Assembly: GCA_037176885.1 (NCBI GenBank) | Contig: JAWWNJ010000284.1 | Span: 34,413-98,412, forward strand | Source: Favolaschia claudopus | Taxonomy: Eukaryota; Basidiomycota; Agaricomycetes; Agaricales; Mycenaceae | Direction: 5' to 3' | Length of the DNA: 64,000 bases | In this document: in pieces, positions 15,930 to 61,620 of the stretch | Layout of the letters: each line of letters begins with the position of its first letter | Numbering within the stretch: the first letter of the stretch is position 1 | Notes under the pieces: model-generated | The model's database searches: none | What the model was told of the DNA's origin: nothing | The model's input: the letters and a program-made list of their open reading frames with translations, nothing else | Translations under genes and position numbers: made by a program

Positions 15930-18900
15930 ATGTCTGTCTCTATCAACGGATGTTCTCCCACTGTACTCGCTTTCACTGCGGAGCCTAAGACTACCCTCTC
16001 TCGTGCCTTTGCTCATCAGCTCTATCCTTCTGGTCGACTCCCCTCCTGGCTTCCTATCTCCTTGAATACTAGACAACATGGATCTTTTACGGTTCTCTTG
16101 CAGCCCGTCGTGGGGACTTCACAGTGCGCTCTCTCGCTCGGGCTGGACTGGAAGGCCTTCATGCGAGAGCTGCTGCTTTCTTCCGGCTGGAGCTTGAACT
16201 CGGACTTCGACCCAGTCAGCTATTTCTTGCCGGCTCGTATGTTTTTCCTAGCACGCGCTTTCCTGAGCTCAGCTGACACCGGAGCCTTTTTAGTGGTCAC
16301 CGTCTCTTCGGGGGCGGGTGGCCGCTTGTCTGTTCGCCCCGACGCTTACAGACAGGAGGCCCTTCCTCCCGGCTCGCACATTTCCCGTGTTGCGAGTTCC
16401 AGCGCAGGCGGAGCTGTTAATTCCCCAAGTGCCGGTGGCGCTTCCAGTGCAGGAGGAGCTGTTAATTCCCCAAGTGCCGGTGGCGCTTTCAGTGCAGGAG
16501 GAGCTGTTAATTCCCCAAGTGCCGGTGGCGCTTTAATGTTTAATGCTGTTGAATTTCCAAGTGCCGGTGGTGCTTTATCGTCTTCCAGTGCCGGTGGTGC
16601 TGTTGATCTCCCAAGTGCCGGTGGCGCTTTGTCTTCCAGTGCCGGTGGTGCTGTTGCGTCTTCTAGTCGTGTACGTGTTGTAGGGGCGCCTTCTGCTCGC
16701 TTGAATGGATGTAACCTCTTACGTGCTACGATTGTTGGCGGCGATGTAGCTTACAATGTTTTTCTTAATTCTGATACCACTTTTTTCGACCGAATGTCGG
16801 ACGCGCATGGCATTGTCAGCAATTTGTTTCAGTCTGTTGAACAATATCGAGCCGCCATATTGTCCCACCTTATGCTTGGAATGTGTTCTGGGCGCGCGAT
16901 GTCATGCCACGCTGGTTGTGCTGCTGTTGCCGCAGATTTTGCGACCCCTTTGGAACAAGCCTATTTTGCGATCTCCTCTTTGTTATCCACCCCTGATATC
17001 ACATTTTCGCAGCTGAGGCTTTGCGCGGGTTCAGTGGGGTTCGACGCTGCGCGAGGTTCTGGTGCGAGTGTCGATCAGTCGCTTGAAGCAGTGAGATCTT
17101 ATCTTTCAGAGAAGCGTCGGGCTCTCGTCTCTGACTACGCTGGTCTACACCCTGCTCACGTTTTCTTCCACGACGTCGAATACATGTCTACGTCTACCCT
17201 GGCGTCCGTCGCAAGCTTGCATCGCTTATCTTTTCATAATGCCACATCCGACGGCTTGCGGAACTCTTTGATCTCTCATATGGCGTCCGGACAGTGTGCA
17301 ATACAGGCCGAACCCCAGCATCCGCTTGGATGTGCCTCAGTTGTTGACCAGTTGTTTCCTGCGGGCCCGCCGTCATCGATGGCGGCTGACGATTTGAAGG
17401 GTGCAATGGAAATTCAGTTGTTGACGTATCTTTTGCCGCGCATGTCTAAGAAATTGTGCAGGCGTGTCCTTACTGTTCGTGGCGTCGAGTGGACTTCTTC
17501 GCAAGGCATAGCCAGCCTCAGGTCGACTGTGCGTAAGTATATAGGTCAGTTGAGCAAAGGGAAGGAGCTTGTATCAGATCGCGTGTTCGCTGAGAGGCAG
17601 GCCCGAAAAATGCAGATCGATTCTAATGCTGCAGTCCGAGCGCAGGCGTCCGATAAACTGAGGAGTGAGTGGCCTAAGTTGGCGAGTGCTGACAAGAAGA
17701 GGCGATTTAAAGACATATTCGAGAGTTACATTTCGAAGGCTACTCTGGAGACCTTCGTGTGTGGCAGTTGTGTAGAGCGTTGCAGGGTAGATAGGAGGAC
17801 CTTCATAGACTTCGATTCTATTGATTTCGATCTTTTGCGACGTCCGGACATGTTGGTCGACTTGCCTGACGATGATGTGGACGATCCCATGGACAGCGCT
17901 CCTTTCACGCCCCCGTTGAATCCGCGCGATGACGACGTTGCCATGCCTGGCGTCGATGAGGTGCTTGAGGGTCACGATAGAGTACTTCGGTCTGAGGAGA
18001 GAGACATTGGCGAGGACTTTGAAACGGAGGATCCGCCCTCCAGTACGACTTGGTTGGATCCGGACGTGATTCCTCCAGAGATGCCCGTGTCTTCTGGTGT
18101 ATATTCGTCTTTGCTCGTGGATCCGGATTGCATTGGGTTCGGCGAGGAGTCGGGCGCTGCACAGCTGACGGTTTGTCGTGAATGTCGTTCCGAGCTCGTG
18201 AGGGGAGTGGTGCCGCGTCGTTCAATGGCGAACAAAAACTTCTTGGGGAGTGTTCCTAAGGAGCTGAAGGATCTTAGCGTTGTAGAGGAAGCCATGATCG
18301 CCCGCTGCCGTGCCAAATGCTGGATTATCCAAATGCAGGAGCAGGAGGACAGAGGCTTCCCTAACGTGCAACGCGGGTTCAAAGGCCACATCATAGTCTA
18401 TCCGCAGAGACCTTCGGTCATTGTTTCTAGCTTGCCTCCGTCCATAGAGGATATTACTACCCCCATATGTGTATTGTTTATCGGCGCAAAGCCTCCGTCG
18501 GTCGAGTGGCTTCGGAATAACGCCAAGCCGTTGATTGTACGCAAGGAAAGGGTCATGAGGGCTCTTGAATGGCTGGTGGCCCACAATCCGTTGTATAAAA
18601 ATGTTACCATTAATCGCGAAGTTTTTCGCGGTCACGGAGATGTTGTCGATATTCCTTTTCACGTTGAGCATGTTATTCCATCTGACGGCACTGACGCCAC
18701 TACTTCTTCTTACGCCCCCGCTTCCGCACCTCTCCCTAGTTCTAATGCTAGTATTCCGGATGCATCAGGCTTCGCAGAGCCTGTAGCGAATCCCAGTGTC
18801 GCGTTCGACAGACTGCAAGACATGGTTTTGCCGGCTGAACCAGACCCTGTGGCCTTTGAAAGTGTAGTAGTAACCGATGTCACGGGCCACGAACCGTCAA

Positions 18901-21900
18901 ACGTTTTGCGCAAAGCGGCGTCGAACCATCTCCAGAAACAGGGAGCGAACTATCTTGGTATTCCGCATGACCCGAGTCCTGTCAACGAGTTTAACAATCC
19001 GGATTTGTTGCCTCTGATATACCCTACGTTGTTTCCGTATGGCATTGGCGGGCCAGAGAACCCGACGAGGCGGACCTCTTTTGGTTTTGAAGCGCATATT
19101 CGACATTTCTTTAATTTGGCTGACAGGCGGTTTCAGGAGCATTACTCTTTCTTATTTACAGTGTTCAACATGCTGCAGCGACGACGTCTTCTGCAGCGCA
19201 CGAGCTTCAAAGTGAAGCGCAAGAATTTTGATACAGTGGCCGCTCGATTTGCCGCGGTATCCCCCCTTGCCATACACACAGTGTCTGAGAGAGTAAGCAA
19301 AGGCGATTTGAGCACAGTCAACAGCGACGACGAGCGTCAGGTGCTTGCATTGATGAAAGAGGTGAATCTGATCAACGCGAGCGTATACGGTTCCCCTCAA
19401 TCGAAGTTAGTTATGAGGAACGAGATACGTGGCCTGATGCTCGAGAAAGGTTTACCCAGCTTTTACATCACAATAAATCCGGCAGATGTGCACAACCCCT
19501 TGGTTAGGTTTCTCGCAGGCGAGGAGATAGACATTGACAGACTCACTCCAGGAGATATGAAAAATCGCCCCGATCAAGGCATATTAATTGCCAAAAATCC
19601 GTCTGTCGCCGCGGAATTTTTCAATCTTTACATTAAAGCGTTTATCGCAGCGCTCGAATATGATCCTTCTCACAAAGACGTGGAGGGGGGTATTCTGGGA
19701 GTAGTGAGTGCATACTATGGCTGCGTCGAGGCTCAGGGAAGAGGAACGTTACATTGTCACATGCTCGTCTGGGTCGAGGGAGGCCTGAATCCCAACGAGA
19801 TCAAACGGAAAGCGCTCGAGAATGGAGGTAATGTAGAGTTTCAGCAGAGGTTGATTGCCTTTTTGGAGGATACCATTTCGACTTCCATTCCTTCCGACGC
19901 TGCTCAACCGGTTTCGCACCCGCTTTCTCAGTATCATCCCAGTGCCACTCGGGGACCCTCCAAGGCTTCCTTGTCTCCAGAAGAGTTCAGTGTTGCTCGT
20001 GACAGCGATTTTCGCGAATTAGCGCGAGTTTGCCAATATCACAAGCATCAGCGCACCTGCTATAAATATTGGAAAGGACCTGGTTACGAGAAGGAGTGTC
20101 GGTTCGACCTTGACGAGTCCAATGTTAGGCCCATCAGCGTTTTTGACCCTGAGACAGGCTCCCTGGAGCTCCGTTGCCTCGATGGCATGGTTAATCAGTT
20201 CAATGCTACAATGCTGGAGAGTTTGCGATGCAATATGGACATTAAATTTATTTCCTCTGGTAAGGCTGCCAAGGCGGTTATGCATTATATCACAGATTAT
20301 ATTACCAAAACGCAGCTGAAAGCGCATGTAGCTTACGCGGCACTCGAATTGGCGGCTAGTCGTTTGGGTGAATTTGATCCTGAAATAGACGAGTTCACGT
20401 TGCGTGCCAAGAAACTTTTGCAGAAGTGTGCTCACTCGATGATAGCACAGCAAGAGCTCAGCGCTCAGCAGGTGGTGTCCTATCTCATGGGATTTGAAGA
20501 TCATTTCACGAGCCATGAATACGTCAACTTATATTGGCCTTCGTTGGAACAGTTTATAGAATCAGAGCGCCCGAGTCCTGAGTGCTATACGGCTAAGCCC
20601 CGAGTCGCCGACGAATGGGATCTCGATCCTCCCACAGACCCAGTTCACGAGGACTCTATCGACGTCCATGTTCCTGACGATGCGTCTCGACAGCCTCCCT
20701 TTGCTCTAAATGAAGACGAGTCTGCTGATGGGGAGCCCATTCTCATGGACGACGAGATCGCGTTGCAGATTGGGAAGGACGGTAAATTTACGCCCACCGC
20801 TAACCAGGCTAGAGACTATCAATGTAGAGGAGCGGCTCTCGAGGACGTCAGCGTATGGGACTTCGTAGCGCAGGTAGATAAAACTCGCATAGTCAAATCG
20901 CGGCGCGATCATAACGGCAAAGAGCGCACCAACGAATCCGAAATTCCAGAACGCATTGACATAGACGAGTATGCAGCCGGTCAGCGGTGGGATGTGGATC
21001 GGGATGGGCCTATCTTGCGATGGACCGGAAAGCGGCGGCCTAGAATACACTTGTTAGAAGAGCACTTGGAAGATAAGACTCATTTCCTTCGCGTTTTGTC
21101 GCCGCAAGGGCGCAAAGTTCCGGTTCCCATAGGCCCGTCTTTACCTCGTAGAGATCGAGAGGAGTCTGGTCCGAAGTATGCTCGATTAATGCTTATCTTG
21201 TTCAAACCTTGGCGACATTACACGGACCTTATCAAGGATGGTCAGTCGTGGCTGGACGCCTTCAAAGAGTTTGTGGAGACTTGCTCTTCGCGGACTTTGG
21301 ACGTGATGGACAACATGCAACTTATACACGAGTGTAAAGATAGTCGGGACGATCATTTTGCTAGCCGTGCTGCCCGAAAGGTCGGGGACGGAGTTCCTAC
21401 AAGAGTGATGAATGCCGACGGAAACCTGGGGGATTACGACGAGTCTGATGTTATCGCCCACATGGATGCAGTGGATGCCTGCTATTCGAATAGAAGAGAA
21501 CAATGCGACCAGCGAATTAAGGAGGCGATCCGAACGCTGACTCGTAGTGGCATGTTCTCCGACGATACAGGCGATACCTCTGGGCACCATGATGGCGCAG
21601 AACAGTCGTCTGGACACGATCTCGTCCGTGAGCGACAGCCCGCGTTAGAGCAGCGATGGGAGAAAAATTACGAAGATCGCAAGGATGCTTGGAAGAAGGT
21701 GGCGACTGCTCCTGTAGCAACAGATGTGCCCGTGCATCAGGATTCGCGCGCGTTAGGAGCTTCAGTGCAAGACGGTTCTGTATTCCGCAAAGGAGGGCGT
21801 GTTCTCGCCGGAGAGTTTGAGGGAGTCGGAGTTCAGCGTGGCCCCGTCCCGGACGAACAGGAACCTTCTACACCTAGAGACGCTGAAGCACTGATCGCCG

Positions 21901-23855
21901 AGATAGCCGCTGACTTTACTTTGAACACAGAACAGACGCGAGCTTTTGAGATCGTCGCACGTCACAGCCTTGATCGCTCCGCAGACCCGTTGAGGATGTA
22001 TCTTGGTGGGCCTGGCGGAACCGGGAAATCACGCGTGATTGACGCTTTGAAGGCGTTTTTTGACGCTCGCACAGAGTCAAGGCGTTTCAGGTTGTCGTCC
22101 TACACTGGAGTGGCCGCTCGCAACATCTCTGGCATGACGCTTCACGCAGCGCTGGGTATGGGTCAAGGGTCGGCTCGCGCGTCAAGGTCTGGAAAGGGCT
22201 TGAGAGATCTTATGTCAATGTGGGATGGCGTTGATTACCTGTTCATCGACGAGATCTCGATGGTGGGGTGTGCCCTTCTGTATGACATTAGCGAGGCTTT
22301 ATGTGCGGCGAAGGGTGACCCGTCCTTGGCGTTTGGCGGAGTGAATATGATTTTTGCTGGGGACTTCTATCAGCTGCCTCCTGTCAGGCAACAGAGGCTA
22401 TATGCCCACCTAGAGCTTGAATCTGCTCACAAAAAGCGAAAATCTTCGGGAATAAAAACTTCTACCGCTTCTACGGAGATGGGTCAGAAAAACATATGCG
22501 GCAAACTTCTTTGGTTGAGTGTCAAGACAGTGGTCCTGTTGACGGAGAACAAGAGACAGTCAGGGGCGGAGAACGCGCGCTTTCAGCAGCTGCTGGATCG
22601 ACTCAGATACGGCAGGTGTACTGTCGACGATTTCGAGCTTCTGAACACCCGTTTACTGGACAATGTTGATATCGATTGGACGACAGAACCGTGGTGCAAT
22701 ACTCCGTTGATTGTGAATGAGAATGAAATGAAGGATCGCTTGAACTACAAGGCAACGGTCGAGTTCGCTAAGAGATCGAAGCGTCCTCTTCGTTGGTATT
22801 ACACTGACGATGTGATCGAGAAGCAAGCAGTCTCACCTGGCGACCTTGCCGAGCGTTTGGCCCGTTTAGATACAGGCAAGACGAACCAGAGGATGGGCAA
22901 GATTCCGCTTGTCATTGGCATGCCCGTAACGATAACCCAGAATTTTGACGTTCCAGGCGGCGTTGTGAACGGGTCATTCGGGACTCTGCAGAGTGTGCGG
23001 TATACGTTGGACGATGACGGAAATAGGCACGCCATATCCTGTGTCATCGAATGCAAGGACACCAGCGATCACATCGTGCCAGGTCTTCCCAATCATCACG
23101 TAGTGGCCCTTCGTGACACGACCTATTTTAAAATCGAGCATCCGTATACGCATAAAAAATGCTCGGTCCGTCGAACTCAACTCCCAGTGCAACCGGGGTT
23201 TGTTATGACCGCATACAAGTCCCAAGGCAAGACTCTTGCTGCCAGCGCCGTTAACATCAGTGACTCCAAAGGAACAGAGTCGCCTTATGTTATGATATCG
23301 AGAGTGACATCCCTTGAAGGTTTGCTCATAGTAAGTCCTTTTTCTCACGCCAGAATAACCTGTCGCACGTCTGAGGACCTGAGGCGAGAGACTAAGAGAC
23401 TGGAGTTCTTATCGCTCCGCACTAAAATGAAGTATGGGACGGAAGTTGAAGGCTTGGCGGCAAAGGCAGAGATCAAAGCTCGATTTCCGGCTGATGCGAT
23501 GGGTGACAGCGACTCAGAGTCTGAAGACGAGAATGTCGTCCCCGAGCACCCTTGGAATCGGTTGAAAAGCAAACAAACGGCGAATGTCAAGCTGACTAGA
23601 TTTATTGCAGTCCCCGCTAAGCGCGAGGTGAACAGGCGAGATCTCAGTCGTTCTTTGACACGGGTTCGCCCTGCGTTTGCTTATACCCTGGGACTGCCCA
23701 TGGGCCCGACCTCGGGGTCGGGGCATGTCCCAGCCTCTCTCGAGGACAGCGGGTCATTGCCCGGAAGCGCCCCTGCGCGTAAACGGCGCAGAAAGAATCT
23801 TGATGAAGCGGTGAGTACTGCGGCAGCCGATTTGTACCGGCATTCGTGGAATTAA
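15930..23855 (+). CDS. Helitron Rep/helicase (RepHel)
   Basis: A single intronless 2641-aa frame, an autonomous rolling-circle transposition protein. Residues 1-750 are a variable extension containing SAGGA repeats (about 157-245) and an acidic stretch. A DUF6570-like segment (NFLGSVPKELKDLS) lies near 770. The Helitron_like_N region starts about 1045. The HUH nuclease motif HCH is at 1275-1277 within GRGTLHCHMLVW. A Cys/His-rich segment (CQYHKHQRTCYKYW) follows. The two-tyrosine motif YITDYITK is near 1453-1460. The C-terminal PIF1-type helicase has Walker A GGPGGTGKS (Lys 2033), Walker B DE at 2107-2108, GDFYQLPPV, TENKRQ, TAYKSQGKTL and ISRVTSLEGL. All key residues are present, so the protein looks functional. 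The tail is basic and disordered. Confidence 0.95.
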   Translation: MSVSINGCSPTVLAFTAEPKTTLSRAFAHQLYPSGRLPSWLPISLNTRQHGSFTVLLQPVVGTSQCALSLGLDWKAFMRELLLSSGWSLNSDFDPVSYFLPARMFFLARAFLSSADTGAFLVVTVSSGAGGRLSVRPDAYRQEALPPGSHISRVASSSAGGAVNSPSAGGASSAGGAVNSPSAGGAFSAGGAVNSPSAGGALMFNAVEFPSAGGALSSSSAGGAVDLPSAGGALSSSAGGAVASSSRVRVVGAPSARLNGCNLLRATIVGGDVAYNVFLNSDTTFFDRMSDAHGIVSNLFQSVEQYRAAILSHLMLGMCSGRAMSCHAGCAAVAADFATPLEQAYFAISSLLSTPDITFSQLRLCAGSVGFDAARGSGASVDQSLEAVRSYLSEKRRALVSDYAGLHPAHVFFHDVEYMSTSTLASVASLHRLSFHNATSDGLRNSLISHMASGQCAIQAEPQHPLGCASVVDQLFPAGPPSSMAADDLKGAMEIQLLTYLLPRMSKKLCRRVLTVRGVEWTSSQGIASLRSTVRKYIGQLSKGKELVSDRVFAERQARKMQIDSNAAVRAQASDKLRSEWPKLASADKKRRFKDIFESYISKATLETFVCGSCVERCRVDRRTFIDFDSIDFDLLRRPDMLVDLPDDDVDDPMDSAPFTPPLNPRDDDVAMPGVDEVLEGHDRVLRSEERDIGEDFETEDPPSSTTWLDPDVIPPEMPVSSGVYSSLLVDPDCIGFGEESGAAQLTVCRECRSELVRGVVPRRSMANKNFLGSVPKELKDLSVVEEAMIARCRAKCWIIQMQEQEDRGFPNVQRGFKGHIIVYPQRPSVIVSSLPPSIEDITTPICVLFIGAKPPSVEWLRNNAKPLIVRKERVMRALEWLVAHNPLYKNVTINREVFRGHGDVVDIPFHVEHVIPSDGTDATTSSYAPASAPLPSSNASIPDASGFAEPVANPSVAFDRLQDMVLPAEPDPVAFESVVVTDVTGHEPSNVLRKAASNHLQKQGANYLGIPHDPSPVNEFNNPDLLPLIYPTLFPYGIGGPENPTRRTSFGFEAHIRHFFNLADRRFQEHYSFLFTVFNMLQRRRLLQRTSFKVKRKNFDTVAARFAAVSPLAIHTVSERVSKGDLSTVNSDDERQVLALMKEVNLINASVYGSPQSKLVMRNEIRGLMLEKGLPSFYITINPADVHNPLVRFLAGEEIDIDRLTPGDMKNRPDQGILIAKNPSVAAEFFNLYIKAFIAALEYDPSHKDVEGGILGVVSAYYGCVEAQGRGTLHCHMLVWVEGGLNPNEIKRKALENGGNVEFQQRLIAFLEDTISTSIPSDAAQPVSHPLSQYHPSATRGPSKASLSPEEFSVARDSDFRELARVCQYHKHQRTCYKYWKGPGYEKECRFDLDESNVRPISVFDPETGSLELRCLDGMVNQFNATMLESLRCNMDIKFISSGKAAKAVMHYITDYITKTQLKAHVAYAALELAASRLGEFDPEIDEFTLRAKKLLQKCAHSMIAQQELSAQQVVSYLMGFEDHFTSHEYVNLYWPSLEQFIESERPSPECYTAKPRVADEWDLDPPTDPVHEDSIDVHVPDDASRQPPFALNEDESADGEPILMDDEIALQIGKDGKFTPTANQARDYQCRGAALEDVSVWDFVAQVDKTRIVKSRRDHNGKERTNESEIPERIDIDEYAAGQRWDVDRDGPILRWTGKRRPRIHLLEEHLEDKTHFLRVLSPQGRKVPVPIGPSLPRRDREESGPKYARLMLILFKPWRHYTDLIKDGQSWLDAFKEFVETCSSRTLDVMDNMQLIHECKDSRDDHFASRAARKVGDGVPTRVMNADGNLGDYDESDVIAHMDAVDACYSNRREQCDQRIKEAIRTLTRSGMFSDDTGDTSGHHDGAEQSSGHDLVRERQPALEQRWEKNYEDRKDAWKKVATAPVATDVPVHQDSRALGASVQDGSVFRKGGRVLAGEFEGVGVQRGPVPDEQEPSTPRDAEALIAEIAADFTLNTEQTRAFEIVARHSLDRSADPLRMYLGGPGGTGKSRVIDALKAFFDARTESRRFRLSSYTGVAARNISGMTLHAALGMGQGSARASRSGKGLRDLMSMWDGVDYLFIDEISMVGCALLYDISEALCAAKGDPSLAFGGVNMIFAGDFYQLPPVRQQRLYAHLELESAHKKRKSSGIKTSTASTEMGQKNICGKLLWLSVKTVVLLTENKRQSGAENARFQQLLDRLRYGRCTVDDFELLNTRLLDNVDIDWTTEPWCNTPLIVNENEMKDRLNYKATVEFAKRSKRPLRWYYTDDVIEKQAVSPGDLAERLARLDTGKTNQRMGKIPLVIGMPVTITQNFDVPGGVVNGSFGTLQSVRYTLDDDGNRHAISCVIECKDTSDHIVPGLPNHHVVALRDTTYFKIEHPYTHKKCSVRRTQLPVQPGFVMTAYKSQGKTLAASAVNISDSKGTESPYVMISRVTSLEGLLIVSPFSHARITCRTSEDLRRETKRLEFLSLRTKMKYGTEVEGLAAKAEIKARFPADAMGDSDSESEDENVVPEHPWNRLKSKQTANVKLTRFIAVPAKREVNRRDLSRSLTRVRPAFAYTLGLPMGPTSGSGHVPASLEDSGSLPGSAPARKRRRKNLDEAVSTAAADLYRHSWN
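16397..16668 (+). repeat. In-frame 45-bp repeats coding SAGGA motifs
   Basis: Three near-identical 45-bp units start at about 16401, 16446 and 16491. Diverged half-units run on to 16668. Together they encode about ten copies of SAGGA separated by V/N/S/P residues inside the RepHel N terminus. The flexible linker appears to have expanded by replication slippage or unequal exchange. Confidence 0.85.
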
Positions 23856-24441: not shown

Positions 24442-26135
24442 ATGGCCGAGGTTTCTGACGACGATACTCTGCTTTCTGGTATGTCTTGGACCTTGGTTCC
24501 CCGTGCCCCGTGGTGACCGGGTTCAGTTTTTGACCAGAGGAACGAGTGTGGCTTGTATGACGAGTTGGCCAATAGTTTAGAGGCTATGGGCAAAGGAGCT
24601 TTAGGCAACGTCGATTGCCCTGAGGACTTTGCCCGTTATCAGCCTGCTTATGGCTCCAATATCGAGTTCCGCACCCCTGACGGGTTCGAGTTTCGCACCG
24701 TGATCATGGGGGAAATCGCGTCCCCTTCTGAGGGTACTGTGATGCGAGCCACCGGTAATTATTATGTCGGAAATAAAGTCAGTTTTTCGTCCTCCAGTCT
24801 GGTTTTGCGGCGCTCACCTGCTCGCAGTTTCAGCCCATAGACGACACGAAGAAAACAGTTAAAGACGTTCTGGCGCTCGTCATGCCCACCGCTTCTTCAG
24901 TTCGCCTCGCCAATTTTTTCAGCAACCAAACTGTCCCGCTGAGAGACGCGATCGATCATGAAGAGGAAATGGACGAGCGCGCGGTACCTTATCAGGTAGG
25001 CACTGTTCTACCCTCGTGGCTCGACTTACGCCCAGGAACAGGAGTATCTAAGCCGACCGTGGATGCGGTCTGTGAGCCAAGACAGCACCCAGGACGATAT
25101 CATAGTCGTTCATATGATGCCGAAATACGGGGTGCGTGCCTATACAATCATTTCGTATTTGTCCGCAGACGGTAACGCAAAACGACACAGATACCAGCGG
25201 CCACCGGCACAGTTGCACCCGTTGCACGACGAGCCAAGCGCAAGTTGGATGACGTGACTGGCCCCGTCGTGGACGCTGTACCGGCGCGATCAACTCCAAG
25301 CAGCGTGGTCTCGTTGCCTCGCGGTGAGTCGGTGAATTGGGATTGATGAATACCTCTAAGGTGATGTTCCTTAGAGTCGGACATTAAGTTGGGGGCGTTC
25401 TATGATCCTCGCTTACTTGAAGATTACGGGGGCGACTATTTCCGCCACGTCAAAGCGAAGCTGCTCCAACTCGACGTTCGAGATGCTACTGTCAAGAGGA
25501 AGCCGCGCGAAAAAGAAGATGTGCTCGTGCCTCCCTGGGAGTTTTACAGTAAACTTCGCCCCGGAACTCTGGTTCTCGTCAACGCCACACTTCACATATT
25601 CGTTATGAACGACATTGATTCGAAAGGCATCACTCGCCCAAGGAAGAGAAAGGTGATTGCTTGGCAGTTTATCGGTCTCGGATCGCTTACTCGCTTGTTT
25701 CTTGAGATTTATCAAATCAACGCGCACAGCATCAAGATACTCAGCCATTCCGACTTGCCTGTCGAAAAGCGATCTATCTTGGTCCCCCCTGGTCTCGAAG
25801 GCTCTCCTTCGAACGCTGTCCCTCCTCCTCCTGCTTTCAGCTCGTTCACGTTGAAGTCCAAGCTCCCGCAAACTGAACCCCCTGCTCCCCGTGCCCTCGA
25901 CGAGCTCATGGATCAGGATGAAGACGCTGTGAGTTGGCCGCCAAGCCTTCCTGGTCAGTATGTCTGCTGCGTTTCGTGTCATCGACTTACCTGACTGTTC
26001 TTAGCGTCTCCCACTGAAAGTCATGCGCTGGCTTTCGAAGAGGAAACTTTCGACGATCCTATCCTGCCCATAGTCGACGAGGAACCACCTCCGCCGGAGC
26101 AGCCCAAGAAGCGGAAGAAGCGGGGAGCGAACTGA
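24442..26135 (+). CDS. Unrecognised nuclear-type protein with C-terminal NLS
   Basis: Seven exons join in frame (24442-24478, 24527-24777, 24828-24995, 25036-25131, 25191-25331, 25389-25953, 26005-26135) to 462 residues. The start is supported by a TATA box. The middle has a basic patch (ARRAKRKLDD) and a conserved-looking region (LVPPWEFYSKLRPGTLVLVN, then KRKVIAWQFIGLGSL). The tail is acidic and proline-rich and ends in PKKRKKRGAN, a near-perfect SV40-type nuclear localisation signal. It is the first cargo gene after RepHel. No family recognised; nuclear location is inferred from the NLS. Confidence 0.7.
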
Positions 26136-26586
26136 TGTCGTGTCGAGCTGCCGCTTCTTGATAAACGCTAGGCGTGTTGTCGCTGCGTTATCTGGCTATT
26201 CAACTTGGCCTCCAGGGGCGCGTGCGGGGGTTTACTGCGATTAGCTATTAAACCTGCCGTCCAGTGGGATACCTTCAACGGCTCGCTGTGTAGAGTGTCG
26301 ACTGTAAATAGGTTCTGTTTCTACTGCGATGTGATTAGTGTACTATAACTCGGCGATTCGACGCACTGGCAGCACATGAGTGTTCGTGTGAGAGTGAGAA
26401 AGGTCTCCCACGCTATTGTTCCCACGTTGAAATGGCCGCTGGCGGCATCATGCAATCGGCAGAAGCCCGGCATCTTGTTTACTTGCTCCTCCTCGTCGAG
26501 CTCGGTATCTTACTTTGTCTACCACCAGCTATCCGAGTTGCAGTGATTCGTGTTTGCTGGCGACCTCCGCGTGACTTGTTTGTGAT
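26136..26586. other. Intergenic spacer
   Basis: No gene seen. It carries the 3' region of the preceding gene and the promoter region of the SET gene, without a clear TATA box. Confidence 0.4.
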
Positions 26587-27663: not shown

Positions 27664-27904
27664 ATTTCAGGTTTGCTTGTATGATCGTCGCAACTGTGTT
27701 TGAATGGCATTTGCCAATCAAAATTCGTTTTTTTTTTTTGTAATAGTACATAGAGCTGCACGATTAGTATAATAAAGCGTTGGATCCAGGGTTTAGAGAG
27801 CGGTTTCGTGGTCTTGTATGCCTTAGCTTGTTGAGCGTGACAAAGGTCGGCCATTGATGTTATGTACTTCGCGCGATAGCGGTCACATCATCACTGTCAC
27901 GGAC

Positions 27905-34573: not shown

Positions 34574-34658
34574 TCGAAGACCTGATAACGGCTTGTGACT
34601 GTCACTGTGACCCCCGTTACATCTCTCCGTCACCTGCTTGCACTTCGTTCCTCGAGAA

Positions 34659-46700: not shown

Positions 46701-46813
46701 ACTTTGTGGGGAGCACTGGGATCACGTCGTCGCACGGCAAGGTGAACATTGATGGTGCTCTGATCCTGTTTCCGGTTACCTCGCTTTGTCGCTCTGATCC
46801 GATTGCAAGATAG
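43794..46813 (+). CDS. Spt5-like transcription elongation factor (NGN and KOW domains)
   Basis: Eight exons join in phase (43794-43821, 43919-43984, 44057-44316, 44370-45500, 45560-45637, 45690-45749, 45785-46080, 46129-46813) to 867 residues. Layout matches Spt5: short acidic N terminus (DFLDLAAEEDRGEEDEDSE); NGN domain starting IWTVKATRGREWDVVC (about 112-195); a first KOW at about 203 (GTWVRVRSNNVYHLDLAWVY ending LIYLVPRW, compare the Spt5 LIPRID); KOW-like segments LRIGDRVRLPEGDDL (about 391) and FRVGDYVEVITGRWVGL (about 446); and weaker KOW-like segments near the end. Spt5 pairs with Spt4 and clamps RNA polymerase II. No CTR phospho-repeats were seen. It is probably a diverged captured paralog rather than the housekeeping gene. 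Confidence 0.82.
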
Positions 46814-46927
46814 TCGCGTGCTCATGTACGATTTACTTCCGTAATTCGAAGAATACATTGCTAGATCCCCTTTTGTGTGATTCGGACTAGCGCGTCCCTG
46901 TAACGTTTGGACTCCGCATCGGCGTCT

Positions 46928-46933
46928 TATAAG
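46928..46933 (+). promoter_or_regulatory. TATA box
   Basis: TATAAG within CTTATAAGCA, 36 bp before the ATG at 46964. Confidence 0.5.
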
Positions 46934-46963
46934 CAGGAGTCGCAGATTTGCCTACGCGCTGAC

Positions 46964-50699: not shown

Positions 50700-51490
50700 T
50701 TAGGGCGCTATTTTTTTTGGGTTGGCTTGTGAATTTCGTTGGTGTCTTTCATGTCGATGGGATGTGACATGTAAGCGATAATGCATGTAACCCTTTTCTC
50801 TGTTTTTACCCTCGTAGCGGTATCATCGTATCCTCTCGCTGGATTCGATGGCCCTATTTCCTCCCTTTTTGTGGTGGTGCCTGCACTCTATAGCGCAGCG
50901 CCTAAGTGTGGTGTTTGGGCAGAATTCTGAGTTCTCGTCCGTGTGGCTGAAATCAGTCACGCTCTACGGCGACGAGTTGGGGCGGTCGGTAGCTTTAGCG
51001 AGCAGGCTCGGCGTGTGATTCTTCCCCTGCAGGGTCCAAATATTAGCCGCGCGAGGACGGCGGAATTCGATTGAATGTGTACTTGGCCTAAGGGGGGCTG
51101 TCGGTGGAAACGAGGAGTCGGATGTTGTGTTGCGGCCCGCATGTCTGACGCTTCGCGCCATCTTTCCGGTTGCGAACTAATTGGAGTGTGTCCTATCTCA
51201 TTGCGTGCGTGTAGGGTCGCGGTGCACCCGAACCTCGGTCGCCGATCTTTCGGGAGCCGGGACTTCGCGACTGTGACTCGCGTCTGATTCATTGCCCCGC
51301 GTCTTCGTTTTGATTGAGTTTCGCGTCGAATACATCGCTGCGCAAGTTGCCTTCTATGAGTCGGATACATCCGGGAAAAAAAATGTATAATCTGATTCGT
51401 GCCCAGAATGCACAGTCTTGACATCTGGTTTGTCGACTTATGGCTTTCGGAATTTTTGTTTACGGTGTTTATTCTTACTGGTGCGATGCC
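50700..51490. other. Intergenic spacer
   Basis: No gene supported on the plus strand. A 155-codon minus frame (50957-51424) is compositionally a shadow and has no TATA box or splice sites. Confidence 0.45.
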
Positions 51491-51496
51491 GCGCCC

Positions 51497-51504
51497 TATA
51501 AAAG
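51497..51504 (+). promoter_or_regulatory. TATA box
   Basis: TATAAAAG, 30 bp before the ATG at 51527. It is the best-formed promoter in the window. Confidence 0.65.
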
Positions 51505-51526
51505 GGGAAACAATAACTAATCAAGC

Positions 51527-52874
51527 ATGTCTTTCGCAGGCTTCAAACGCCGTCGCAACCGCAAAAAAACCAACAAATCTTCTGCCTCGACTCATTCTGT
51601 TATGTCATCGGATTCCTCTAGCCTCTCGTCGCCTCCACCTTCTAAGCATTCGCGATCTGAGGATCTTGCGGTCCAGCAATCCGTCGCTCGGCGTTCGACT
51701 TTCGCTGCCATGTTCCCCGCTCTTTTCACCCTGCTCAACTGCTTCAACGTGATGGAGACCATACTCGGTTACGTCGATTTTCAGGATATGCTGGCATTTG
51801 GACAGTCGTAAGTCTGCCTTTCGAATATGATCAACGATGTAACCATGTTTATGCCCACTCCCGTTCAGAAATAAGGCTTTCCAGGAAATTAGTCGTCGTT
51901 TTTTTCGGACTCGTGTCGATCGTCAGATTTCGACTTTCTTGTCCAGCGCGCCCCTGAACAGCTCCGAGTTCAGTATTGCGCTTCAGCGGTTCTGGGACCT
52001 CATGGATCGATCGCATTCCGCCGTTCATGGTTCACTCCTCCTCTATCTGGAGCGCTGCGAGGAAGCGGTCAAGCCATGGATCCCCGCCAACCTGAATATC
52101 GCGATCCCAGGCGGCGCCCTCTTCCCGTGGATCCGATACCTGCATAATTTGAGTGCAGGCGATATGGGGTTCCGAGAGCTAGAAGTCGATGCGTGTCTGC
52201 AGGTGCATATCGCGTCCAGGTATCGGTTTGAGCTTGTTCCCGTGAGTACATTTCGTTCTGTGTTTTTCTGGTCTGTGTCGACCTTTTCTTCTGTTAGGGG
52301 CGCCATATAATCCTCACTCAGACTCAAGGACCTAGCATCGCTGAAGCCATTGTCGTCTCGCCCCATACTGCTAATATCCAGTTCCTTACCAGAGACTTTT
52401 TGGTCATGTATTACCCGAGAAAGGCTTTTGACGGGAGTGCCATCGATAGTTGGTATTATCCGCCAATCCAGGCGAGTCAGGATCTAGAGCGTCGAGGAAT
52501 TCGCAAATCTATAGACAACAGCAGCTGGCTTACCGGGTGTGGAGCCGCTTGTCCTATTCTTTGGAGACACTTCTCGCGTGATCGTGATTCGCTGGTCCTG
52601 CGCGTTGGATCCGACTCAGCTGTCCTCGACCCCGTTATCATGTCTTCGAAGATGAAATGGCGACTCGGTGACACTTGCTATAACAGCGAATGCAAGAATT
52701 ATGCAACTCATTACTATCCGTTCATGCCTGTGCGTTTTGTTGTTGTTCCTTGTTCTTGCTGAGTCAACGCTAACTCGGTGTTTGTAGCGAATTCGGCGTC
52801 GTGCTGCCTTCCACATAATGGCGAGTGTCGACAGCTTATTATTTTGCCCTCTGACTCCTTTTTACTCTCAGTAA
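51527..52874 (+). CDS. F-box-like protein with nucleotidyltransferase-fold-like domain
   Basis: Exons 51527-51807, 51869-52241, 52298-52729 and 52788-52874 join in phase to 390 residues. A basic, Ser-rich leader (KRRRNRKKTNKSS) is followed by an F-box-like segment (LNCFNVMETILGYVDFQDML then FGQSNKAFQEISRRFF). The next part has SAVHGSLLLYLERC ... WIPANLNIAIP. This resembles the GS ... DLD core of nucleotidyltransferase-like proteins abundant in Agaricomycetes, but here both acidic positions are Asn, so catalysis is unlikely. The Cys-containing end (CYNSECKNYATHYY) may bind metal. Related in architecture to the genes at 54.9 and 56.6 kb. Confidence 0.65.
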
Positions 52875-52939
52875 ACGGAACGGGTCTTGTTCTGAGGCGC
52901 TTGACACGTTGATGTCGGCAGTTACATTGATCGAGCGGG

Positions 52940-52942
<3 letters not shown>

Positions 52943-52970
<28 letters not shown>
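52943..52970 (+). repeat. 28-nt poly-G tract
   Basis: An unbroken run of 28 G, preceded by GGGGGA, 68 bp after the stop of the F-box-like gene. Such runs form G-quadruplexes and are prone to length error in sequencing. Confidence 0.9.
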
Positions 52971-53380
52971 TTTGGTTTTTGGTTTCCTTGTTCTTACCCC
53001 GATGCTACTCTGTCTTTCTACGACTTTTTTTTTCGGACTCGCGTGTCGTCCTTGAAATATCTTAACTTGTGGTGCTGCATAATTGCGTGCTTGATTTATG
53101 CCATGACCTCCACTTATTGAACGTCCGTGAGGGCAATGGGTGTCACTGTTACAGCCGGCTCGCGAAGCCATGTCACATCAATGATGTATCACCAGTCACG
53201 TGATCGTGACTGCGGGCTCAGTCTTTAGTTTCCAACGAGCCACCATCCAACAACTGGGATGATCTGCTTTGAAACTGTATTTTGGCGATCATACTACTCT
53301 TTGGCCTGCGGAACATGAACTTGCGCAATGAGTCACATTGCCTCTCCCGAGTCATCATAACTGCGGGTATTGTTTTGGAT

Positions 53381-53444: not shown

Positions 53445-54633
53445 ATGGTTATTGAAGGTATTATGTGTCCGTCTTCTATTGTGCTGTGCTCATTCGCTAG
53501 TAGATCCCATATTGGCACCGAATCCCGGTCGCTTCTCGTTATTTCCCATCACTTATCCCCAGGTATGTCTTCTTGTTTGTGTTCCCCGCCGTTAATGTGC
53601 ACTCATGCGTCTGGTCGTAGATATGGATGATGTAATAAGAAAGCTGTTGCCTGTTTTTGGACCGCGGAAGAGTTAGATCTGGCGCACGATCTTGTTCATT
53701 GGAAGTCGAGCCTGTCCGACAATGAGCGGCACTTCATCACCACTGTTCTGGCGTTTTTCGCGACGGCGGGACGGGTGTAGTGAACGAGAATCTGGTTCAG
53801 CGTTTCGCCGATGAGGTGCAAATCCCAGAAGCACGCTGTTTCTACGGATTCCAGATTATGATAGAGAATATCCACTCGGAGACGTACTCGCTGCTAATCG
53901 ACGACTATATCGACGACCCCGAGCAGAAAGACCGTCTGTTTCGGTCGATCGAAACAGTCCCGTGCGTGCGTCAGAAAGCCAGCTGGATGATCAAATGGAT
54001 GGACGAAGAAAGGCCCTTTGCAGAACGCCTTGTAGCGTTCGCCGCCGTGGAGGGCATATTTTTTTCGGCTTCTTTCGCATCTATCTTTTGGCTCAAGAAG
54101 AGAGGGTTGATGCCAGGGCTCACTTTTTCGAACGAGCTTATTAGTCGGGACGAGGGCATGCACACCGATTTCGCGTGTCTGTTATTTTCGTTGTTGCAGA
54201 CGAAACCAGCCTCCGCAAGTGTAGAGGCTATCGTTCGGGAAGCAGTGTCTGTAGAGACCGATTTCGTCCACGGTACCTTGAATCGACTTTTTCTCCGTCG
54301 ACTTTCACTAACAATACACATGTAGAAGCGTTGCCCTTCCGACTCCTTGGCATCAATCCGGATTCTATGATTCAATACGTGCAATATGTGGCAGACAGGC
54401 TTCTGGATAGTTTCGGCGTGGCGAAAGTGTTCAATAGCGAAAATCCGTTTGACTTCATGGAATTGATCTCTTTGGAGGGGAAGACCAATTTCTTTGAAAA
54501 GCGGGTGTCGGAATACAGCAAAGTGCACATGCTCGGACGCGAGAACCGAGGGAACGTGTGAGTCCACTCCTCTCACTTACGAACCGAACGCCAATTGACA
54601 GCATCTGATAGAGTTTTGGATGCCGACTTCTGA
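53445..54633 (+). pseudogene. RNR2: Ribonucleotide reductase small subunit with two frameshift lesions
   Basis: Encodes the eukaryotic class Ia R2 subunit, which houses the diferric-tyrosyl cofactor for making deoxynucleotides. Exons 53445-53457, 53501-53572, 53621-54272, 54326-54559 and 54611-54633 follow clean introns. Recognisable blocks: WTAEELDL (Asp ligand), ENIHSETY (Glu, His and the radical Tyr), [28 protein letters not shown] (Glu, His) and a C-terminal VLDADF, the tail that docks on the large subunit. The third exon is broken twice: one extra base near 53634, and two extra bases within 53767-53780. The 45 codons between are out of frame. Either a recent pseudogene or base-calling errors; downstream of 53780 the frame is open and conserved. 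Confidence 0.85.
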
Positions 54634-54899: not shown

Positions 54900-55992
54900 A
54901 TGAGCAGCCAGCCTCGCTTTGTGGAACCACTCGTCTTTATTGCTCGTCAGTTCTTATGCATTGCCCTCTCCTCTGATATTTCTGACCACTGGCCATCAAC
55001 TTGGGGCAGCTGTCCACGAACGTATGTCGCCTCTTAATAGACCTTGCCGATTATTGTGGTGCTGATTAGAGTGTACAGCTGCTGATATACAACTGGTCGC
55101 GGACGTCAATTCGGCTGTTAGTCCAAAGGCGGCTCTGAGCCTTTTCCTGTATCTTGAAAGCGTCGGCTTCTGCGCCCCTGTCGACGAAGCGTTGGCGCGC
55201 ATCAACTGTATGCAGATGTTCGACGCTGCCTTGCGTAGTACCGGGTTGGCGGCCAGCAATGTGCATAATTTTGTGGGCGTACATGTCGACGAACCCATCA
55301 TTCGCAGAGGTGCCTTTTGTTCTGCTTTGCAGACTCTATCGCTTTGCTCACTGTTCTATTATCAGCAGCTAAGTTGGTCGTTAGAGACGCTCTCGACAAA
55401 TATCGTACGTGTTGGCTACTACAGTGGACGAAATGTTTATAGTTTTCCAGGAAAGCGTACCTTTAACGGTCCCGTCCACAACCGCGTTTTGATGGCGGAA
55501 TTCATCTGCAGTTTGCTCAACAAAGGGGAGAAAGATCGCACTTTAGAGGACGACGTTATTCTTCCTTTGCTCCTCCAGTACAGCGTCAGCCGACTCCTCG
55601 AGCCTTTTGGACTTTATTTCGGAGACCTAGTACTCCTTCACTCCACGACCGGGACCGTCCTGTGCGGCGAGTTCATTGAAGCTTTGCTGGATTGTCGTCT
55701 TCGGCCTCGATGTCTCGATTTCTTTTGCGGGTATGGAGTGGAAAGCAGGGTCAGGTCGTACCTCATGAACGTGGGCAAGTTCAAGTTGCGGGGCGTCAAG
55801 ACCGAGGGCAACCCCCCCGGAGTCACTATGAGTGTAGGGCTCGAGAATGCGGATGGTATGAGGATACGCCTGTTTCAACTCGCTATGTTCTCGTCAATCC
55901 AAGCTGTTTTCCCGTCCCCTGCTGTGGCTGGAATGAGTGAGCATTCTATTCCCGCTTGGCTTATGCGAATTGCGGAGCTAATTTGCATGTAA
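54900..55992 (+). CDS. Nucleotidyltransferase-fold-like protein, degenerate active site
   Basis: The first exon starts MSSQPRFVEPLVFIA and is followed by an intron whose phase I could not settle. The main frame from about 55077 runs to the stop at 55990. The motif region reads LHSTTGTVLCGEFIEALL ... RPRCLDFFCG and aligns with LMQAATGALISGSFIAAL ... RPNDLDFFCG of the next gene. In this copy the GS of the nucleotide-binding loop is GE and the first catalytic Asp is Cys. Probably a non-catalytic paralog. The N-terminal part (EALARINCMQMFDAALRSTG ... FVGVHVDE) matches the next gene's MNTYQLFTTALRSRMGAMNV ... MAITVDE. Confidence 0.65.
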
Positions 55993-56510
55993 TGTAGGTG
56001 TTATTATCAGGCGCCCCGACAACTACTAATCGTTTCGGACAATTCCACCGTATGCTCGAGTGCTTCACCGACGTACCCTGCCCGCGTCAATTTTTGTGCC
56101 GTTCGCTGTAGTTTTACCGAGTCTGTCCTATCACGAGGTCGTGTTTGCCGTATCTGCCGGAGTGATGACTGCATAATCAATGGAATGGCATTTACGTAAC
56201 CACTGCCTTCTCTCTTTTTACCACCACGACTGTTGCGGCGTTGTTCTCAATTTTGGCGCTCAGTCAAGATCGAGATGTGATCTCCTGTCCGCATCTGTGG
56301 TCCTCTGTATGGAAGACGCGCGTGCTCTGATGACGTAAACGGTTAGAAGATCTCTGTGTTCCTGGATTCGATGGAGAGCCAGTCTTCGGCTTTTCGCCTT
56401 TCGGCGAGCAGAGACTAATATCGGGCTGTGTGCAGAGTCGGGCGACAGAAGCGTCTGCGTCGAGCACAGTCTGAAACGCTGATCGGACGATCATCAATGT
56501 TCACAATAAA

Positions 56511-56518
56511 TATAAATA
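56511..56518 (+). promoter_or_regulatory. TATA box
   Basis: TATAAATA within ATAAATATAAATATA, 43 bp before the ATG at 56554. Confidence 0.55.
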
Positions 56519-56553
56519 TACCTCCGAGTCAGTGCGTTACTCTCTTCGCGTCC

Positions 56554-58015
56554 ATGCCCTATATTGTGCGCCCCCCTCTTTCCTGTCAGTATCTGGATAA
56601 CTGTCCTTTGCGAGAGCTCTCACTTACGCTCGCCGCCTAGTCGATGTTCTCGCTAGACAGGATACGATTAAGCGTGTATTGTGGTGTGACTTGGCGGAAC
56701 GTTATCTGCACGAGATGAACACATATCAGTTGTTCACAACCGCTTTACGCAGTCGTATGGGCGCGATGAACGTTGCTAAATTCATGGCTATAACGGTCGA
56801 CGAGGTCTTGGATGAGAAACGTACGTTTGCGTGGCAGTTCTGTCCTCTTGTTAACACGTCGCTACAGTTCCAGAGCTAGAGGCAAAGGTCGCAGCGCACA
56901 GTGGGTCCTCTTTATCTCCCATATTGAGCGCTGAGCGTTCATGTGCGGGGCAGGCCTCAATACTAATCGGCAGCACGACCACCAGAGCTTTGTTGCCCTG
57001 TTCAGGCGACTTATTACAGTCTGCCGCGCGCGATTTGAAGCCAGAAGACGTCCGTTTGCGGTCTGATCTTCTGGAGTATATGACAGCACATCTTCTCTCG
57101 CAGTTCGAATTGCGTTACGGAGACGTGAAGCTCATGCAGGCGGCAACAGGCGCTTTGATTTCGGGCTCCTTCATTGCGGCTTTGGTTCACCGACATTTTC
57201 GACCTAACGATCTCGACTTTTTCTGCGGAAATGACAGGACAGACGACATCGTTAAATATTTCCAAAATCAGGTGGATGTCGAGTACGTTGTAGAGACGGG
57301 CGGCGATGAAGGTTACCAGAACGTGCGTGGCGTGCGGCCGGTAACCACACTCACCAGCCCCCGCGGTTGCGTGCTCAATATCGTGGAGGCCTATTCCGAG
57401 TCGCCACAGGAGATCATACTTAATTTCCATTCCGCTCCGACCCGGGGTGCGCTCGGCTGAGATGCGTTTGCTCACTACGAAGTCCATCGTGCTAGGAACG
57501 GCTTGGCTCTGGTTACTCCTCGCTCCTTGCCCGTCAACGCAGATGACCTCGATAGCCAGATCGAGGCTTGGAACATTCTGCACAAGTATATGCGCCGCGG
57601 CGTCACTTTTATTTTCGAATACAATGTGCCGCACGAATGTGGCAAGCACATAGACTGTCCCGCTACCCCCCGCACCACGGCTGACGACGGCTGTTTACGC
57701 TTCAGTCTCCCACCGATCAGCATACCGGACTTTGCGCCGTCGCCGGCTCAGGTTTTCACTTGGTCGTTGGGTCCTGTGGGCATGTGCTCCACTGGAACTG
57801 TGGGCGGAGTCAAATTGGAGCACACGAGGACTTTTCGTAATTTGCGTATTTTACAGGCATGCCATACGCTGACTCTTATAACAGAACATCTCGTCTTTCG
57901 AAAGCTAGTTGGCGCGCTCATACAACTTCACGACGTTCCAGACGAGCCAGTTCAGATTTATCCTTGGACCGAGAGCTGGAGTGCCGATAGAGTGGACGAT
58001 TCTGACTCTGAGTAG
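56554..58015 (+). CDS. Nucleotidyltransferase-fold protein with intact GS...DLD motif
   Basis: Exons 56554-56584 and 56641-56820 are followed by a long exon from 56868. The core ISGSFIAALVHRHF and RPNDLDFFC (about residues 168-190) has the GS loop and both Asp of the pol-beta-like nucleotidyltransferase motif. A Cys/His-rich end follows (HECGKHIDCPATPRT). An in-frame TGA at 57458-57460 interrupts the frame. It disappears if a 36-nt GT-AG segment (57447-57482) is spliced, which keeps phase and gives about 440 residues. That intron would be unusually short, so a nonsense mutation is the alternative. Substrate unknown. Tandem paralog of the preceding gene. Confidence 0.65.
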
Positions 58016-58381: not shown

Positions 58382-59283
58382 ATGACGACTTTTGCCAGCA
58401 CTCGACTATTGGGACCTCGGAACGAAATGCGACCGGTTCTCGCCACGGACGTCGCCCGTGAACATTTTTTCGTCACTCGCGATAAGGGAATGTTGGACGT
58501 TGAGGGATACATGCATCGATATAGCTACAAGTGGGAGGGTCGCGACCTGGGCGCCACTCTCGGGGCCGCTTTCCGCGTGAGGTTGGCCAAGTACCGCACG
58601 AGCATAATCGCCAGAGTCGTCGAATGCGAGTACGAGTTCCTGCTGAACCCGTTGGGCATGGAGGTGGGTTTCCATCCTTCGTTTGGCGATATGTTTATAT
58701 CCTGCCTGCAAGGGATGTCCTCGAGAGAGTTCTCGGCTCACGTTGGGCTGTCCTCCGGGCATAGATCTGACGACGGGCGAATTTTATGACCGCCAGATTC
58801 AGACCCTGAACGAAGTCGTCGCCGCCGATGCCCAGGATAAAGTGAGTGTCTGACTCTGATTCTTTCCCCGGCCCTTTTCTCGATGTGCTTATCGGTCTAT
58901 AGCCAGGGGTAGTGGATAGAAATTGGACAAAGCAGGGAAAAGATGGGGCGATGTTAATCGAGGTCTGTCCTGCTTTTGTCGGTCCTTCCCGTGGACTGAA
59001 ATTGGTGGTCTTCGAGGTTGTCGTCGGCGTGCCGCCTGACCGCTTGTGTGCAGAATTACCTGTAGGTAGAGACGTGGAGATTACGCTCAATCTTTCCAAG
59101 GACGAATATTTGCATGCTGACGGGATACTGCATAAGGTCCGTGTCCAAGGAAACTCGTACCCATCGCGACCTGACGAATCGTTCACAGAAATTTGTATTG
59201 TGGCTCAGGGATTACAGGCAGTTACACGACTCCGAATTGGGACGATCTTGAGATCTCAGTTACACAATCACCGAGATCAATGA
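58382..59283 (+). CDS. Tandem orphan family, copy 1
   Basis: Exons 58382-58667, 58765-58841 and 58903-59283 join in phase to about 230-247 residues, depending on whether a 54-nt in-frame GT-AG segment in the last exon is removed. Family signature seen in all four copies: xTRDKxMxDVxGYxxRYSYK at the N-terminal end. A short coiled segment (YDRQIQTLNEVVAADAQDK) comes next. An exon beginning PG follows, and a C-terminal DVEITLNLSKDEYLHADGIL. No TATA box. No domain recognised. This is the best-preserved member. Confidence 0.6.
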
Positions 59284-59321
59284 TCGATTTACTTAGCCCG
59301 AGCTTTTCCTGTCCGTGTACC

Positions 59322-59330
59322 TATATAAAG
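59322..59330 (+). promoter_or_regulatory. TATA box
   Basis: TATATAAAG, 39 bp before the ATG at 59361. Confidence 0.55.
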
Positions 59331-59360
59331 TGTGGTAGCCTTTGACTAACCGTGGTCTTC

Positions 59361-60287
59361 ATGTCGGATACCTCCATAGCTGGCAGGCTTTTGCACGCCG
59401 AGCGCAGCTTGACCCACCCCACTGCTCGGTACCGACGTCTTGAATCAGCATTACGCCTCCACGCGGGATACCAGCCTCATCGACATCGCCGGTTGCTGTT
59501 CGCGTTACACCTACAAGTCCTTGATTCCTCAAGCTCCCACTGCTGGTGCTCCTGTATTCGTAGAGCGCTCTCGCAGGGATTACGCGAAGTACCGATCCTT
59601 GCTCATAGTAGAGGTGCACGAGGTCAACGTGGTATACAAGGATAATCCGCTTGGGAAAGAGGTGCCGTCGTTTCTGTCGCCTCTTGTCCCATTATCTGAT
59701 GATCCAAAAGCGTAGCGGGCGTCGGTGCACTCGCATCACCACTAGATGTCCTAGCGGGGCCGACGAAGATACTGTCAAGTTATTTCATTTGCAAGCGGCC
59801 AAGTTACAGACAATCATCGACGAAGACTTGAAGGAGACGGTAAGATATATGAGTTCTATCGACTGGCTTCGGTAACCCGCGTTTTTGTAGCCAGGAGAGG
59901 TGACCACTAGTTGGTTGAAGAAGACTGCTAACGGCTCCCCGCTTATCGACGTCATGGTGCGTCGACTTGGCTTCCCTTTCATTCGGCTTTCGTCTCCTTT
60001 TTCCTTTTTTTTACTTTTTATCTTATTTCTCGAGACTCTGTCCTGAAATACTTTCGCAGATTATGGGTACGCCTCGAGACTTGGCCATGCGAATGAATTT
60101 GGTGCCCGGTACCGACTTGGAGTTAACGGTGTCACTGTGTAAGGATGAGCGCTTGGATGCAGATGGGGCACGTTTCAAGGTCGGTTTCGCCGACCACAAG
60201 GTTTTTTTTTTCGGTGCTCAACCAGCCCCAGGAGTTCTCTGCGTGGATCCGATGGTGGCGACCGATCTCTGCTGCCGAAATAGGTAG
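59361..60287 (+). CDS. Tandem orphan family, copy 2
   Basis: The start MSDTSIAGRLLHAERS is supported by a TATA box, but its join to the next coding frame (about 59440) is unclear. The rest parallels copy 1: STRDTSLIDIAGCCSRYTYK, then GADEDTVKLFHLQAAKLQT, an exon starting PGEVTTSWLKK after an intron at 59840-59891, and after another intron TDLELTVSLCKDERLDADGA. The shared intron positions show descent from a common spliced gene. Confidence 0.55.
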
Positions 60288-61283: not shown

Positions 61284-61310
61284 AGTGCTGCAATGTTCTG
61301 TTCTGCCATA

Positions 61311-61620
61311 ATGTCACGCCTGAGCATCTATTCTTTCTTGGAAGATGTCGAGCAAAATCGCGTTCTGGCGGACGAGGTCTACCCTGTAGACCTTGGCATG
61401 ACGCGGGATAAGACCATGGAAGTACAGGGGGGGCACATTCACTGCTTTTCCTGTAAGAATGCGGCGCATAGCATCCGCAACGCGTCAAGCACCTTGGCTA
61501 GAGTGAGAAAGCCGTTGCCAGCCGTGTATATAGGCTGGGTGGAAGGACAGATTCATCAGATCCGCGCGGAATTTGGTTTTCGATATATTAACGGGAAAGG
61601 AGAGGTAAGCAGTTTCTGAG
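61311..61620 (+). pseudogene. Tandem orphan family, copy 4, missing its 3' exons
   Basis: The first exon is intact (MSRLSIYSFLEDVEQN; then MTRDKTMEVQGGHIHCFSCK) and ends near 61603 at a good donor (GAG|GTAAGC). No homolog of the second to fourth exons follows. Within about 60 bp the sequence changes to AT-rich DNA. The gene is cut off there, so this point is a candidate right boundary of the island. Confidence 0.6.

Follow-up and report, generated by a model that had tools for sequence, protein, structure and literature searches.

A probable giant Helitron family with a conserved gene core in Favolaschia claudopus

Does the long array of genes that follows a Helitron replication gene in the mushroom Favolaschia claudopus belong to a transposon, or does it only adjoin one? 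The locus lies in a stretch of 64,000 nucleotides, here called the window, that forms the end of contig C284 (98412 bases; JAWWNJ010000284.1 of GCA_037176885.1, an assembly of 264.6 Mb in 460 contigs). A sequence-only reading had proposed that window positions 15930..61620 are one exceptionally large rolling-circle element, headed by a complete RepHel (Rep fused to a PIF1-type helicase) and carrying about twenty genes on one strand. We find that the array belongs to a unit with fixed ends that recurs at different sites, and we are highly confident that this unit is a giant, non-canonical Helitron with a Helitron2-like terminal inverted repeat.

Ends, copies and empty sites

The head of the island is as first described. 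RepHel (15930..23855, + strand) occupies a single open frame at 15882-23855 with its first ATG at 15930, matches the Pfam domains DUF6570, Helitron_like_N and PIF1, and carries the motifs HCH (residue 1291), YITDY (1469) and GGPGGTGKS (2042), which we take to be the HUH, two-Tyr and Walker A motifs, respectively. Open frames of 2290-2675 codons are present in four of five other copies.

The bounds of the island had to be redrawn. A search with its left part placed the left end at 15560, common to six copies (window, C134, C175, C159, C34 and C133) whose flanks differ. On the right, the window can be aligned with nine other copies as far as 61666 (C159, C113, C131, the left end of C284, C108, C175, C134, C133 and C34); in eight of them element sequence continues beyond this point, so that a right end at 61.6 kb was rejected, and only C159 shares the window's break. 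The abrupt stop at an AT-rich flank is real, in that a gene start (61293..61666, +) is truncated at 61666 and the DNA on its right has 39.4% GC, but this edge is that of a nested DNA transposon with 433-bp terminal inverted repeats (TIRs; 61667..64000, no strand assigned) that runs off the contig end. In C159 such a transposon, about 3.6 kb by coordinates, separates the element halves, and a second one lies further along. By tracing the preceding copy on C284 (L041), we mapped the 3' end to C284:17404, which lies 7.92 kb past the equivalent of 61666; the same end, with differing flanks, is found in seven copies (L041, C108, C131, C113, C34, C133 and C159). AT is present at all 13 of 13 element junctions. 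The unit measures about 48 kb, and the window copy about 54 kb with a private duplication, plus the nested transposon. Our whole-genome DNA and protein searches scored the best candidates (39 of 833 for the left part, 40 of 98 for the right part, 33 of 95 for gene 1 and 53 of 139 for KOW, both described below), and copy numbers from them are therefore lower bounds. Five contigs (C113, C108, C284, C134 and C175) break at two places within the giant Helitron, and C284 both starts and finishes inside copies of it.

The 5' terminus, A^TGCCCACTATCCTTAGTGGG (15560..15579, +), forms a terminal hairpin and is defined by the six left ends, pattern hits and empty sites. The 5' arm of an asymmetric terminal inverted repeat, GCCCACTATCC, recurs inverted as GGATAGTGGGC ahead of the 3' hairpin (11/11 nt match), and the 3' terminus reads GGATAGTGGGCTTTGCCGCGCTTGCGCGGGCCTACTGCGATTA^T; the mapped unit runs from TGCCCACT to GCGATTA. 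The expectation of a 3' hairpin with a CTRR end within a few kb of 61.6 kb thus held for the hairpin, found after a few kb of further element sequence, while the end itself reads, in shorter form, CTACTGCGATTA^T. This hairpin has the same sequence in seven right ends, its fold being computed without a shuffled control. Features of the Helitron superfamily are present (Rep with HUH and two Tyr fused to a PIF1-type helicase, A/T insertion and a 3' hairpin), as is the asymmetric terminal inverted repeat of Helitron2; the canonical Helitron1 ends (5'-TC, 3'-CTRR) are replaced by TG...TA, and the 2657-aa RepHel frame has no Pfam match to a Helentron-type endonuclease.

Both copies sharing the two ends and a clean empty site between A and T, which the sequence-only reading had expected, were found within the assembly. 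At the first empty site, the left flank of the C134 copy and the right flank from C284 are contiguous in C174 and C10 (90-95% identity); at this identity these loci would be alleles or paralogues. At the second, the window's left flank and the right flank of C108 are contiguous in a repeat copy at C167 (94% and 91%), which indicates that the window's insertion site is completed by C108 or its allele. From the two sites, insertion occurs between A and T without target duplication (a 2-bp AT duplication would read alike). Shared ends, differing flanks and empty sites together support the interpretation that one giant rolling-circle element spread as a single unit.

A genome-wide pattern search allowing up to three mismatches, whose counts are complete, returned 47 5' ends, 36 3' ends and no reversed patterns. 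A same-strand 5' end lies upstream within 100 kb for 24 of the 36 3' ends, compared with three in each of the strand-flipped and wrong-order controls. Seven pairs are giants (C70, 36.1 kb; C5, 36.2; C161, 39.3; C34, 48.0; C133, 48.2; C8, 60.5; C159, 76.7), and all seven contain a RepHel match. The other 17 are 1.6-7.3 kb apart, below the size of the RepHel frame (8.0 kb), and no pair falls between 7.3 and 36.1 kb; judged from ends and spacing, the short pairs appear to be short derivatives with the giant's ends. Four of the 12 unpaired 3' ends (C108, C113, C131 and C284) lie on contigs interrupted within the element.

Gene content and the conserved core

We next consider the genes that recur downstream of RepHel. 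Gene 1 (24442..26135, +, a 7-exon model) lies beside it in the window and in its relatives; because a relative, P0243, has the OB-fold core of the gp2.5/CP312R type, gene 1 is predicted to encode a single-stranded DNA (ssDNA)-binding protein of that fold. It is followed by KOW (43794..48591, +), an 18-exon model of an Spt5-NGN/KOW protein (NGN, 28.8 bits), and by RNR (53500..54633, +), a ribonucleotide reductase small subunit (R2) identified by domain and homologue searches and sister to basidiomycete R2s. Last come NT1 (55066..55992, +), which sequence comparison places as nucleotidyltransferase-like with a degenerate signature, and its modelled paralogue NT2 (56497..58015, +), which has a G-S-x12-D-L-D signature and whose fold model, built from 5 sequences, is uninformative, with a predicted local distance difference test score of 31.

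Eight further RepHel loci (C46, C79, C161, C90, C8, C42, C70 and C5), 66-76% identical by piece, carry these genes downstream on the same strand: KOW at all eight, NT1 and NT2 at all eight (NT2 as weaker, 31-37% matches to the NT1 query), gene 1 at seven (not seen at C8) and RNR at seven (not at C79). The order RepHel, gene 1, KOW, RNR, NT1, NT2 is kept in 15 of 15 hand-picked loci; RepHel is present in nine of these, counting the window, and went undetected in six. Leaving aside the near-identical copies, 29 RNR loci were listed, and at 19 of them a same-strand NT gene lies at most 6 kb downstream. More widely, gene 1 has at least 38 matches, in Favolaschia, Mycena, Termitomyces and Arthromyces, plus one further protein; RNR and gene 1 are on contigs of equal size in Mycena leptocephala and M. 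galericulata (71291 and 777902, respectively) and are probably linked there, and no Mycena is named among the best 120 of 438 RepHel matches. These comparisons suggest that the core is a gene set common to a family of giant elements and not a recent capture by the window copy.

Between the window and C133 copies, which are 92% alike, the ratio of nonsynonymous to synonymous substitution (dN/dS) is well below 1 in four cargo genes: RNR (0.146; 246 codons), NT1 (0.219; 298 codons), NT2 (56497-58015; 0.241, with one stop) and a gene-finder model at 58427..60287 (+) with no assigned function (0.165, no stop). The dS of NT1 (55081-55989) is 0.49 against 0.07-0.15 in its neighbours, which points to recombination between elements. 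At C2:1172039/1174001, C31:1855773/1857717 and C262:27579/29523, small-subunit RNR genes form inverted pairs with a spacing of about 2 kb.

Over 15.5-64 kb, the score of a simple splice-aware gene finder was 756 for the + strand (14 models, RepHel included) and 20 for the - strand (6 short models), a contrast inflated by training of its codon table on + strand frames. The Pfam scan of 40 sequences, limited within the span to + frames, gave no Pfam-matched gene on the - strand. The single orientation stands; the count of about twenty is plausible, since an 18-exon model (26432..32032, +) among the 14 is probably several genes. Its first part holds a SET domain (about 27087-27462; 51.5 bits, the cutoff for SET and NGN being 22.4); a JmjC domain suspected by eye at 30-31.5 kb had no Pfam match and is not claimed. 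A tandem duplication (32805..44521, +) holds an F-box-like gene, which scores below the Pfam cutoff, and a 588-aa gene, each twice. Its period of 5858 bp is repeated with no mismatch and, by copy length, is absent from the C133, C34, C134 and C175 copies; it is possibly an assembly artefact. A gene-finder model without a Pfam match lies at 51408..53120 (+). An apparent intronless retrocopy at C109/C39 was rejected as proof of splicing, as its gap edges are not GT-AG and an element open frame spans the first three gaps.

Readings of the cargo

With fixed ends, copies in differing flanks, empty sites, short derivatives and a kept core order in hand, we asked what the cargo might do. By analogy with the Helitron family, RepHel would cut at the A^T termini, and one long strand would be displaced, copied and integrated at a further A^T. 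Judging from the anatomy, the gene core would act on behalf of the element: the very long displaced strand would be coated by the gene 1 protein, the reductase small subunit, which limits synthesis of deoxynucleoside triphosphates (dNTPs), would raise their supply, the Spt5-like protein would aid element transcription, NT1 and NT2 would work as paired nucleotidyltransferases, and the SET and F-box-like genes would have accessory roles. An ssDNA-binding protein beside RepHel and an R2 fit the needs of a 48-kb displaced strand, which requires coating and much dNTP. The reading that we favour, by a modest lean, is of a distinct eukaryotic replicon: a giant rolling-circle transposon whose long-kept virus-like core (initiator-helicase, viral-type ssDNA-binding protein, Spt5-like factor, reductase small subunit and nucleotidyltransferase pair) serves its own replication. 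It would have spread across Mycenaceae, and short non-autonomous elements would exploit it.

A number of observations weigh against the giant Helitron and the role given to its core. RepHel is broken in C159 (longest open frame, 982 codons). In the fold comparison, TM-scores against CP312R are low (0.27 by query and 0.46 by target), and Pfam, PDB sequences and PHROGs gave nothing significant for the gene 1 sequence. R2 was found alone, no search having been made for the large subunit. The RNR frame of the window copy is shifted by a 2-bp difference near 53771 that is private to it; seven of nine other copies are in frame here, while two (C113 and C134) carry an additional T at this position, and C113 has lost one base from the next RNR exon as well. 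NT1 of the C133 copy has five stops on the modelled exon, and at 10 of the 29 listed RNR loci the 6 kb downstream contain no NT gene; the host's own R2 should be one of these. The sequence-only reading had named RepHel absence with retained cargo as telling against a single element, and this is partly seen: six core loci (C45, C115, C247, C43, C333 and C69) carry KOW-RNR-NT1-NT2 with no RepHel by DNA search, the gene being lost or too diverged. These blocks are decayed elements or a second family. Finally, C284 ends inside the nested transposon, and the window copy's own 3' end is thus outside its contig; C108 carries the right flank of the window's site yet lacks the nested transposon, and the window's right part, 99.97% identical to C159, may be misassembled or allelic. 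Together with the exact 5858-bp duplication, this points to a possible misassembly inside the window copy, on whose interior the family-level results do not depend.

The broken genes speak for the strongest alternative, a giant Helitron whose genes were picked up once as passengers and bring no benefit, their low dN/dS reflecting a past as host genes or at another locus. The basidiomycete kinship of RNR points the same way, as does the position of the SET and F-box-like genes outside the conserved core tested. However, core order and strand are kept where RepHel similarity is only about 72%, two element subfamilies compared with each other show low dN/dS, and the core functions fit DNA replication; we regard passenger cargo as possible but distinctly the less likely account. 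Far less probable is a DNA virus or virus-like replicon that entered the genome via RepHel. Gene 1 folds like the ssDNA-binding proteins of large DNA viruses and phages (one comparison library held viral proteins only), and RNR is common in large DNA viruses, but the gene models have introns, RNR groups with basidiomycete R2s, and Pfam found neither capsid nor packaging proteins in the 40 scanned sequences (most cargo models have no match at all). The RepHel patterns had no match in viral contigs. An ordinary Helitron of about 10 kb adjoining a segmentally duplicated host gene cluster is scarcely credible: fungal Helitrons are described as spanning 4-14 kb (PMC6431247, PMC5148889, PMC4289320) and the genome has related regions, with C174, C10 and C80 resembling the window's left flank, but all copies begin and end at the same bases in differing flanks, two empty sites lack the whole unit, and the paired 3' ends of RepHel-bearing copies are never nearer than 36 kb.

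How, then, does the giant Helitron compare with known elements? Starships are giant cargo-bearing fungal elements with a mobility gene, a tyrosine recombinase, at the 5' end. The present element resembles them in size, cargo and 5' mobility gene, but that gene is RepHel and not a tyrosine recombinase, in a scan that covered part of the frames. The element shares features with the Helitron2-type FoHeli of Fusarium oxysporum, described with an asymmetric terminal inverted repeat, a 5' hairpin and a RepHel without endonuclease; FoHeli3-5 likewise start with TGCC (PMC5148889). FoHeli elements are given as about 5-11 kb, in contrast to 36-77 kb, conserved multi-gene cargo and A^T insertion here. 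Pleurotus ostreatus HELPO1 is also a basidiomycete Helitron with extra genes downstream of RepHel, reported as one to four cap genes in up to 13.7 kb (PMC4289320). As capB is described as adjoining RepHel in several basidiomycete species (PMC4289320), it appears to be the nearest, if small, precedent for conserved Helitron cargo. Large maize Helitrons also gained size from captured sequence, but carry gene fragments in up to 39 kb (PMC6431247), compared with whole genes in conserved order here. Helitrons of plants, cnidarians and fish pair an ssDNA-binding protein with RepHel as well, although theirs is a eukaryotic RPA (PMC6431247) and ours has a predicted gp2.5/CP312R-type fold.

According to one review, Helitrons reach 14 kb in fungi and 39 kb in maize, and full-length host gene capture is exceptionally rare (PMC6431247); a 36-77 kb family with conserved whole genes would exceed both limits as that source states them. 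In the open PMC literature (which leaves aside subscription papers and preprints), we found no paper on this Helitron family, none joining F. claudopus with transposable elements, none with 'giant Helitron', and none combining Helitron, ssDNA-binding protein and ribonucleotide reductase. With this family it becomes testable how a rolling-circle transposon handles single-stranded DNA of great length, whether dNTPs can be supplied by eukaryotic transposons themselves and where the boundary with DNA viruses lies.

The left flank of the window copy

Upstream of the element, the window holds an adenylate cyclase gene with LRR, PP2C and cyclase domains (1633-5624), with related loci in C174, C10 and C80. 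It is followed by a 5.5-kb repeat (5754-11247) that looks like a long terminal repeat retrotransposon and has eight other copies at 100% (rounded), which indicates that it is recent. Immediately left of the Helitron (14487-15014), a 0.5-kb element has inverted ends and recurs in at least 17 copies at 87-90%.
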